From Streptomyces sp. Ag109_O5-1 (GTDB lineage Bacteria; Actinomycetota; Actinomycetes; Streptomycetales; Streptomycetaceae), in NCBI RefSeq assembly GCF_003814875.1, contig NZ_RKQF01000001.1, positions 6,758,001 through 6,822,000 of the forward strand: a stretch of DNA of 64,000 bases, written 5' to 3'. Position numbers and translations under genes: made by a program. Shown here piece after piece: positions 42,484 through 55,860 of this stretch; position 1 is the first letter of the stretch; every line of letters starts with the position of its first letter. The notes below the pieces were generated by a model. That model searched no databases, was not told the origin of the DNA, and saw only the letters and a list, made by a program, of their open reading frames with translations.

Positions 42484-42515
42484 GGTGCCCGCACCTCCAC
42501 GGCTCTCGCGCTCTG

Positions 42516-42530
42516 CTGACAGGCCGTCAG
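42516..42530. promoter_or_regulatory. TetR-type operator, copy 10
   Basis: CTGACAGGCCGTCAG, one mismatch, 32 bases before the LTP gene start (minus). Confidence 0.76.
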
Positions 42531-42542
42531 GCTACAGCTAAT

Positions 42543-42557
42543 CTGACGGTCAGTCAG
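42543..42557. promoter_or_regulatory. TetR-type operator, copy 11
   Basis: CTGACGGTCAGTCAG, one mismatch, 27 bases from copy 10 and 23 bases before the ligase start. Confidence 0.75.
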
Positions 42558-50435: not shown

Positions 50436-50505
50436 GAGGCGGCTCCTGTCGTGGCGGCTCGTGGCGACTCGTGGCGGCGGTCCTCCACGCCGCCCAACGC
50501 TCGCC

Positions 50506-50667
50506 CACGACCTGCGGTCACGCTCGTCCACGACCTGCGGTCACGCTCGTCCACGACCTGCGGTCACGCTCGTCCACGACCTGCGGTCACGCTCGTCCAC
50601 GCCCTGTGGCCCGCCCTCGTCCACGACCTGTGGCCGCGGCCGCTCACGCCCTGCGGTCACTCCCGTC
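50506..50667. repeat. 23-bp tandem repeat array (about 7 units)
   Basis: Unit starts at 50506, 50529, 50552, 50575, 50598, 50622 and 50645; period 23 (24 once). Each unit holds CACGACCTGCGGTCACG, which includes the inverted repeat GACC-N3-GGTC. The first four are nearly identical, the rest diverged. It fills most of the 403-base divergent gap (50436-50838), where no gene is seen. Confidence 0.85.
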
Positions 50668-53853: not shown

Positions 53854-53914
53854 GCCCCGCTCCCGCTGCCCTGCCCTGCGGGGCCGTGTCTGGATCAACG
53901 CTCCCGACCCTTGT

Positions 53915-53929
53915 CTGACAGAGCGTCAG
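53915..53929. promoter_or_regulatory. TetR-type operator, copy 13
   Basis: CTGACAGAGCGTCAG, one mismatch. Confidence 0.75.
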
Positions 53930-53957
53930 GCAAGACGATGACTCCGACAGCTCCGAT

Positions 53958-53972
53958 ATGACGGATCGTCAG
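53958..53972. promoter_or_regulatory. TetR-type operator, copy 14
   Basis: ATGACGGATCGTCAG, one outer mismatch, immediately before the 27-bp repeat array and upstream of the F420-type gene. Confidence 0.77.
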
Positions 53973-53976
53973 TTTT

Positions 53977-54084
53977 GGTTCACCGGATACGGCCACCGGA
54001 TTCGGTTCATCGGATACGGCCACCGGATTCGGTTCATCGGATACGTCCACTGGATCCGGCCCATCGGATTCAGTCCATCGCGTT
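53977..54084. repeat. 27-bp tandem repeat array (4 units) between operator and gene start
   Basis: Units at 53977-54003, 54004-54030, 54031-54057 and 54058-54084; the first two differ by one base, the fourth is degenerate. Key sequence: GGATACGGCCACCGGATTC. All lie between operator copy 14 and the GTG of the monooxygenase. The frame stays open through the array (GYGHRIRFI-type peptide), but I consider it untranslated. Confidence 0.88.
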
Positions 54085-54095
54085 CAGGAGGGTGT

Positions 54096-55043
54096 GTGTC
54101 CATCCAAGCCCTGCCGGGCGGGCGGCCGGCGTACGGGATGCAGCTCCCCGTCCAGTCCCAGTCCACCATCTTCGCGGAGCCCTGGGAGGCCGCCGCCGGT
54201 CCGGCGGACCTCGTGGCGATCGCCCGCGCCGCCGAGCATGCCGGCTTCGCCTATCTCGCCGTCTGCGACCACGTGGCGATCCCGCGCCGGCTGGCCCCGG
54301 CCATGAGCACGGTCTGGTACGACCCGGTCGCCACCCTCGCCCACCTGGCCGCCGTGACCGAGCGGGTGCGCCTGCTCAGCCATGTCGCCATCGTGGGCCT
54401 ACGGCACCCCCTCCTCTCCGCCAAGCAGTATGCGACCCTCGACCACCTCTCCGGCGGCCGGCTGATCCTCGGGGTCGGCGCCGGGCACGTGGCGGAGGAG
54501 TTCGAGGTGCTCGGTGTGGACTTCCGGCAGCGGGGAGCGGTGCTGGACGAGGCGATCGACGCGCTGCGGGCGGCTCTCGGGCCGGATGAGTTCCCGTCCC
54601 ATCACGGGAAGTTCTACGACTTCGAGGGGCTCGGGCAGCGTCCCCGGCCCGCCCAGGAGCGGGTGCCGGTGTGGGTCGGCGGGTCGTCGCCGGCCGCCGT
54701 GCGCCGGGCCGCCCTCAAGGGCGACGGCTGGCTGCCCCAGGGCGACCCCAGGGACCGGCTGCCCGCACAGATCGACAGGCTGCTGCGGCTGCGCGAGGAC
54801 GCGGGTGTCGAGGAACCGATCACCGTCGGCGCGATCGCCGAGCCGCTGTACGTCGGCGCGCCTGGGTGGGAGGTGGGCCGCCGCACCCTCAGCGGGAGTC
54901 CCGAGGAACTCGCCGAGTCGCTCAGGGCCTACGGCGAGATGGGCGTGCACCAGATCCAGGTGCGGTTCCGCAGCCGGAGCCGGGCCGAACTCATCGACCA
55001 GATCCACGCGTTCGGGGCCGAGGTCGCGCCCCGCCTGACCTGA
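54096..55043 (+). CDS. Luciferase-like (LLM) F420-dependent oxidoreductase
   Basis: 315 residues: GMQLPVQSQSTIFAEPWE, 'ARAAEHAGFAYLAVCDHVAIP', 'GRLILGVGAGHVAEEFEVLG' and 'VPVWVGGSSPAAVRRAALKGDGWLP', which follow the LLM barrel with an F420/FMN phosphate-binding segment. I chose GTG 54096, just after AGGAGGG (54086-54092); an upstream in-frame ATG at 53958 lies inside the operator. In operon with the SDR at 55052 (8-base gap). Confidence 0.9.
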   Translation: MSIQALPGGRPAYGMQLPVQSQSTIFAEPWEAAAGPADLVAIARAAEHAGFAYLAVCDHVAIPRRLAPAMSTVWYDPVATLAHLAAVTERVRLLSHVAIVGLRHPLLSAKQYATLDHLSGGRLILGVGAGHVAEEFEVLGVDFRQRGAVLDEAIDALRAALGPDEFPSHHGKFYDFEGLGQRPRPAQERVPVWVGGSSPAAVRRAALKGDGWLPQGDPRDRLPAQIDRLLRLREDAGVEEPITVGAIAEPLYVGAPGWEVGRRTLSGSPEELAESLRAYGEMGVHQIQVRFRSRSRAELIDQIHAFGAEVAPRLT

Positions 55044-55051
55044 GGAGCGGT

Positions 55052-55822
55052 ATGGGCAAGCTGGACGGGCGCGTCGTCATCGTCACCGGGGCGGCGCGCG
55101 GGCAGGGCGAACAGGAGGCGCGGCTCTTCGTCGCGGAGGGCGCGCGGGTCGTCGTGGCGGATGTGCTGGACGACCAGGGAGAGGCGCTCGCCAAGGAGAT
55201 AGGGGCGGCCTACGTCCATCTGGACGTGGGTGTGGAGGGGGAGTGGCAGGCCGCCGTGGCCGCCGCGAAGAAGGCGTACGGCCGGCTCGACGGGCTGGTG
55301 AACAACGCGGGCATCCTGCGGTTCAACGCGCTCGTGGACACGCCCCTCGACGAGTTCATGCAGGTCGTACAGGTCAACCAGGTCGGCTGCTTCCTGGGCA
55401 TGAAGACGGTCGCGCCGGAGCTGGCCGACGGCGGGACCATCGTCAACACGGCCTCCTACACGGCGCTGACCGGGATGGCGGCGGTCGGCACGTACGCCGC
55501 GACCAAGCACGCGGTGCTCGGGCTCACCCGGGTCGCCGCGCTGGAACTGGCCGACCGGGGGATACGGGTCAACGCGATCTGCCCCGGCGCCATCGACACC
55601 GCGATGTCCAACCCCGCGCGGCTCGACCCGACCGCCGACCCGGCGGAGATGAGCCGCGCCCTCGACGACCTGTACCGCAAGCTCGTGCCGCTGGGCCGGA
55701 TCGGGCGGGCCGAGGAGGTGGCCAGGCTGGCGCTCTTCCTGACCTCGGACGACTCGTCGTACATCACCGGGCAGCCGTTCGTGATCGACGGGGGGTGGCT
55801 GGCGGGGGTCAGTGTCATCTGA
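55052..55822 (+). CDS. Short-chain dehydrogenase (3alpha/20beta-HSD type)
   Basis: 256 residues: TGAARGQG (12-19), Asp37 after beta2 (VVVAD) indicating NAD preference, NNAG, Ser135, Tyr148 and Lys152 (YAATK). The C-terminus ends SSYITGQPFVIDGGW as in classical SDRs close to bacterial hydroxysteroid dehydrogenases. AGGAG lies 5 bases upstream. Its stop codon overlaps operator copy 15. Acts on a hydroxy/keto intermediate of the pathway (inference). Confidence 0.93.
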   Translation: MGKLDGRVVIVTGAARGQGEQEARLFVAEGARVVVADVLDDQGEALAKEIGAAYVHLDVGVEGEWQAAVAAAKKAYGRLDGLVNNAGILRFNALVDTPLDEFMQVVQVNQVGCFLGMKTVAPELADGGTIVNTASYTALTGMAAVGTYAATKHAVLGLTRVAALELADRGIRVNAICPGAIDTAMSNPARLDPTADPAEMSRALDDLYRKLVPLGRIGRAEEVARLALFLTSDDSSYITGQPFVIDGGWLAGVSVI

Positions 55823-55833
55823 CGGCTCGTCAG
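55819..55833. promoter_or_regulatory. TetR-type operator, copy 15
   Basis: CTGACGGCTCGTCAG, perfect halves, overlaps the stop codon of the SDR gene. Confidence 0.8.
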
Positions 55834-55845
55834 CTATTGACCTTT

Positions 55846-55860
55846 CTGACGCTACGTCAG
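55846..55860. promoter_or_regulatory. TetR-type operator, copy 16
   Basis: CTGACGCTACGTCAG, perfect halves, 27 bases from copy 15 and 55 bases before the next monooxygenase gene. Confidence 0.8.

Follow-up and report, generated by a model that had tools for sequence, protein, structure and literature searches.

The window analysed here is a stretch of 64,000 nucleotides from Streptomyces sp. Ag109_O5-1. It contains an oxidoreductase gene ahead of which short tandem repeats lie between an operator and the Shine-Dalgarno sequence. This position raises the question whether the repeats take part in the regulation of the gene, whether they encode a part of its protein, or whether they simply grew within a leader of the usual kind. 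The features concerned are the following.

53911–53939, forward strand: promoter-like pair TTGTCT (53911–53916), 17-nt spacer and GACGAT (53934–53939), kept in relatives
53914–53929, unstranded: operator 1, TCTGACAGAGCGTCAG, matrix score 20.9, overlapping the promoter-like pair
53957–53972, unstranded: operator 2, TATGACGGATCGTCAG, matrix score 25.0, within the predicted transcribed leader
53977–54084, forward strand: 27-bp tandem array with a degenerate unit after three good ones, made of 13/14-bp half-units CAYCGGATWCGG
54086–54091, forward strand: Shine-Dalgarno sequence AGGAGG; the segment 54086–54108, AGGAGGGTGTGTGTCCATCCAAG, has 100% identity in genome G091 and is present in the sister locus L056
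54096–55043, forward strand: LLM-class (luciferase-like) oxidoreductase gene with a GTG start (Pfam PF00296, 4.5e-57; NCBIfam TIGR03619)

The array has a period of 27 bp and comprises four units, which start at 53977, 54004, 54031 and 54058 and each consist of a 13-bp and a 14-bp half-unit. Adjacent units are identical at 26/27, 24/27 and 14/27 positions (counted by eye, ungapped), i.e. the units decay toward the 3′ end and the fourth is degenerate. At a lag of 27 the array matches itself at 64 of 82 positions (0.78). In 5,000 dinucleotide shuffles the self-match, taken over all periods from 9 to 40, never exceeded 0.49. TRF finds a period of 27 with 3.4 copies (53977–54069, score 144) and in addition weaker 13/14-bp sub-periods. 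By the TRF score and the shuffles these are head-to-tail repeats above chance, as in a minisatellite, and the four units of the preliminary description were thus recovered. Between the end of operator 2 at 53972 and the GTG at 54096 lie 123 bases; subtraction of the 108 bases of the array leaves 15, the distance that had been estimated before, and 14 are found in an array-free sister. Elsewhere in the regulon 3–60 bases had been given for the distance from operator to start. This agrees roughly with our values of about 2–55 bases from the start to the nearest operator, which rest on starts from a rough, uncurated map of GC3 and open reading frames.

The product of the LLM gene scores 239.4 bits against TIGR03619 (F420-dependent LLM class oxidoreductase; cut-off 166.9) and is by this family score a TIGR03619-type F420-dependent oxidoreductase, with a predicted cofactor use. 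The promoter-like pair upstream (TTGYCT-like and GACNAT-like, 17 nt apart) occurs in 75 of the 216 upstream regions of orthologs, that of the window included. In many of the inspected regions without the pair the end of an upstream amidohydrolase gene precedes the LLM gene. Because the pair is retained in ten regions in which operator 1 departs from the operator pattern (in L022 by a single base), it appears to matter in its own right. A scan with the sigma-70 consensus found no promoter at the pair. If the pair is a promoter, transcription would start at about 53947, operator 2 would belong to the transcribed leader and the array would be wholly 5′ UTR. The position of operator 2 was counted in the 45 promoter-bearing regions with an operator 40–60 nt past the start of the -35 element, the sole range searched; it starts 44–49 nt past this point in 44 of them and 56 nt past it in one. 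TGACN5GTCA occurs as an exact match 15 times in the window, where 0.88 occurrences are expected. This operator formally fits the BldD box, given as TNAC-N5-GTNA in PMC4151990, but it carries extra conserved bases, and binding of BldD is putative.

A search for the LLM gene covered 61 and later 392 genomes (partly the same, and drawn from a larger genus group), and also 84,980 species genomes, among which 507 relatives were confirmed and the best 80 of the 507 were used. With one genome per species and a part of the orthologs listed, the comparison set amounts to 216 upstream regions of orthologs, all distinct and none longer than 380 bases, with that of the window among them. L216, one of 167 loci, was dropped for lack of the anchor motif, three of the other 166 were duplicates, and 27 of the 80 further loci were already included. 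Among the 216 regions the array is matched only in that of the window. L015 shows a chance match over 13 bases (E 0.28), as does L294 over 16 bases (E 0.86) in a smaller set.

An array-free comparison is offered by the sister locus L056 in genome G299, whose LLM protein is 90% identical and which represents a natural empty site. There operator 2 is followed by 14 bases, ATCCAGGAGGGTGT, which include AGGAGG, and then by GTGTCCATCCAAG; after its array the window continues with the same end as the sister has, CAGGAGGGTGTGTGTCCATCCAAG. In BLAST positions 53895–53972 of the window align to 362091–362168 of G299 and positions 54073–54108 to 362160–362195, so the flanking blocks meet in G299 with a 9-base overlap and no array between them. 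These coordinates of G299 coincide with those of S. hyaluromycini NBRC 110483 (L221). G091, too, is identical to the window over 54086–54108 and keeps the context of Shine-Dalgarno sequence and GTG. Presence and absence between related species at a conserved site, as known from minisatellites, is therefore seen both in the empty site of the sister and in the 215 of 216 regions without a match. This supports the earlier suggestion that repeat expansion lengthened the leader.

How far it was lengthened was estimated with one rule for all regions, which sets the transcription start 36 nt after the start of the -35 element and takes the best in-frame start codon with a Shine-Dalgarno-like sequence. 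By this rule the window has a predicted leader of 149 nt, the longest among the 75 promoter-bearing regions (next 127, median 46), and the array is estimated to make the leader about three times as long as usual. The transcription-start map of S. coelicolor gives a median 5′ UTR of 44 nt, with 15.3% of transcripts above 150 nt (PMC4895711), so that the estimated 149 nt of the window, though long, would be no exception. The difference to the long Streptomyces leaders of that study is that the length here comes from a tandem array, in which we found no structure beyond that of shuffled sequence.

Taken together, we consider it very probable that the array is a lineage-specific minisatellite, grown by slippage in the 5′ leader of the LLM gene, which is probably under the control of the operators. 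A half-unit of 13/14 bp would have been tandemly duplicated by replication slippage, and the resulting 27-bp pair of half-units would have been duplicated next. This growth between operator 2 and the Shine-Dalgarno sequence would have lengthened the predicted leader to about 149 nt (relatives' median about 46) and would have left the promoter-like pair, both operators, the Shine-Dalgarno sequence and the start codon as they are in relatives. Bacterial minisatellites and VNTRs grow by slipped-strand mispairing. The array of the window resembles them in its short GC-rich units, near-identical upstream copies and degenerate end, and also in its restriction to one compared lineage, its location in an intergenic leader and the many arrays in the same genome. 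The effect on the gene is probably near neutral; translation or the stability of the mRNA would be altered mildly at most. Near neutrality is suggested by the absence of the array from relatives, and a young functional element would look alike.

The last point leads to the readings in which the array does something. An additional binding region had been one proposal of the preliminary description. The operator matrix, derived from 100 sites of relatives (median 23.5, 5% quantile 18.9) which were picked by a consensus pattern and thus make it strict, gives a best score of -13.9 in the array and nothing operator-like; a random 112-bp stretch of the window scores at least as high in 79% of cases. 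Extra operators for the same regulator were rejected on this score. A functional 5′ UTR had been proposed as well. RNA folding of 53946–54130 gives a z-score of -0.81, with 40 of 200 shuffles folding at least as well, and for 53974–54095 the z-score is -0.51, a fold that 59 of 200 shuffles equal or surpass; on these values a structured regulatory leader was dropped. A wider proposal is that the array is a functional 5′ UTR or that a second factor, binding DNA or RNA, has a set of sites in it that tune expression, for example at the imperfect palindrome CCGGATNCGG, which recurs each 13/14 bp in the array. The location in the leader speaks for it, as do the regular 13/14-bp spacing, the fact that several half-units are short imperfect palindromes, the occurrence of arrays with similar units at other places in G281 and G030 (less similar in G238), and the terminator-like consensus of operator 2 plus TTTT. 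However, the array is unmatched in the other 215 orthologous regions, its units decay toward the 3′ end, it folds no better than shuffled sequence and it is free of operator-like sites, which together make such a function unlikely. Also quite unlikely, in our judgement, is a recently evolved regulatory leader in which the repeated half-palindromes of CCGGATNCGG would be bound by a second factor or would form alternative RNA pairings, with the copy number tuning translation. If this were true, array copy number would tune an operator-controlled catabolic gene in one species only.

That the array is translated was the remaining suggestion: translation would start at the ATG at 53958 inside operator 2, and the array would encode part of a repetitive N-terminal extension of 46 residues. 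The frame from this ATG is open and in frame with the gene (361 amino acids), just as had been described, and 27 is divisible by three. Among the 45 regions with promoter and operator 2 in the first 163 of the 216 regions, to which the frame and operator tests were applied, the frame of the gene is free of stops from operator 2 to the conserved anchor in 31. Moreover, the ATG lies only about 11 nt past the predicted transcription start, an estimate that may err by a few bases, and this is near the limit of <9 nt used for leaderless mRNAs in PMC4895711; position alone would therefore be compatible with a nearly leaderless start. But while a start codon overlaps operator 2 in 37/45 regions, it is in frame and open in only 8/45 (own included), which is not above the third expected by chance. 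Given the operator sequence NTGAC and the 37 of 45 regions with a start codon at this place, the in-frame ATG follows for the most part from the operator itself. The extension has a third-position GC of 0.67 and the gene one of 0.94, both the sister and G091 conserve the Shine-Dalgarno sequence and the GTG at 54096, and by eye there is no Shine-Dalgarno-like sequence ahead of 53958. The extension was rejected on the 8/45 count and on third-position GC, and we regard it as very unlikely. An assembly artefact, finally, would be conceivable in so far as tandem arrays are prone to mis-assembly, but the units differ among themselves, the contig measures 11.6 Mb in a genome of three contigs, and 108 bp is short relative to usual sequencing reads; we give this explanation hardly any weight.

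Under the preferred reading, a minisatellite grown by slippage, the locus and its array-free sister form a clean comparison provided by nature: repeats lengthen the leader between operator and ribosome-binding site, and the control elements that can be recognised are retained. How much leader length by itself matters in Streptomyces could be tested here on a small scale; otherwise the locus is ordinary. Among the papers listed by a literature search none evidently concerns the array of the window or a regulator with this operator, which is not meant as a claim of absence in print.

Tandem repeats as such are common. A repeat with a TRF score of at least 50 within 160 nt of the G[MI]QLPV anchor was found in 12 of the 216 regions, i.e. 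in the window and in 11 others, whose units are unlike that of the window. Some of the twelve are outside the leader, being located in the N-terminal coding part or ahead of the promoter-like pair. L297 has an 18 bp × 3.2 repeat spanning the upstream gene's stop codon, and L209 a 9 bp × 2.9 repeat in the leader. In the latter (G403, reverse strand) about three tandem 9-bp copies of CTGACGTGA with operator-like half-sites are found in the leader of the same gene; the half-sites are near the expected position of operator 2, and the repeat was possibly made from the operator. In 20 stretches of the own genome (400 kb) TRF gave 28 rows with a score of at least 90, which manual merging reduced to 20 arrays (or 19, with the overlapping pair of L311 joined), about one per 20 kb, with periods from 6 to 264 and coding and non-coding sequence pooled. 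By eye seven or eight of these score at least 144 and so equal or exceed the array of the window. With about one array per 20 kb and repeats near the gene start in 11 other regions, the array of the window is one more member of a common class. A larger 23-bp array (7.4 copies, score 221) lies at 50497–50667 in the window, upstream of a glycosyltransferase-like gene.

As to the origin of the unit, it shows a weak likeness to the operator-2/leader segment of the sister (13/16, all three differences being transitions). With the Shine-Dalgarno sequence included, p is 0.047 (leader shuffled) and 0.079 (array shuffled), and without it 0.068 and 0.126; against the window's own operator regions p is 0.38–0.74. 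There is thus a hint that the unit may derive from a sister-like operator-2/leader segment. A DNA search of the own 12.0-Mb genome found no second copy of the array (next best E 0.65). The pattern of a single half-unit occurs at 115 places in this genome and the reversed pattern at 48. The paired half-unit pattern has hits in 264 of 295 genomes. In both searches the half-unit hits are scattered, many of the listed ones being simple CGGATN repeats, and exceed the reversed-pattern control, which is matched neither for composition nor for reading frame. Two loci, L086 (G281) and L087 (G030), carry arrays elsewhere with units near to that of the window, CCGGATACGGCCCA and, on the other strand, CCGCATCCGGTGG. 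These arrays may reflect either convergence of GC-rich units or a dispersed repeat family; together with the less similar one of G238 we take them as independent of the array in the window.

Operator 2 together with GTTTTGGTTC (53959–53981) is terminator-like by consensus, with a 5-bp stem at 53959–53971 and a 3-base loop; one match to this consensus was found and 0.1 expected. In the sister the TTTT after operator 2 is missing and ATCC takes its place. With such a terminator-like element the leader could be other than passive.

Between 7543 and 55860 of the window palindromic TGACGGNNCGTCA-like operators precede genes for acyl-CoA dehydrogenases, AMP-binding enzymes (one scoring in the FadD3 family) and thiolases, and likewise cyclase-like, SDR, ChsH2-type OB, flavin reductase, Amidohydro_2 and LLM genes. 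Judged from these annotations, the operator-bearing genes probably form a catabolic regulon. Among the 30 open reading frames of the window scanned with Pfam there was no gene for the regulator. Two operator pairs (42515–42557 and 55818–55860) are spaced by exactly 27 bp, the period of the array, and the pair of the LLM gene by 43 bp. Since the array is without an operator-like site, the agreement in 27 bp is probably a coincidence.
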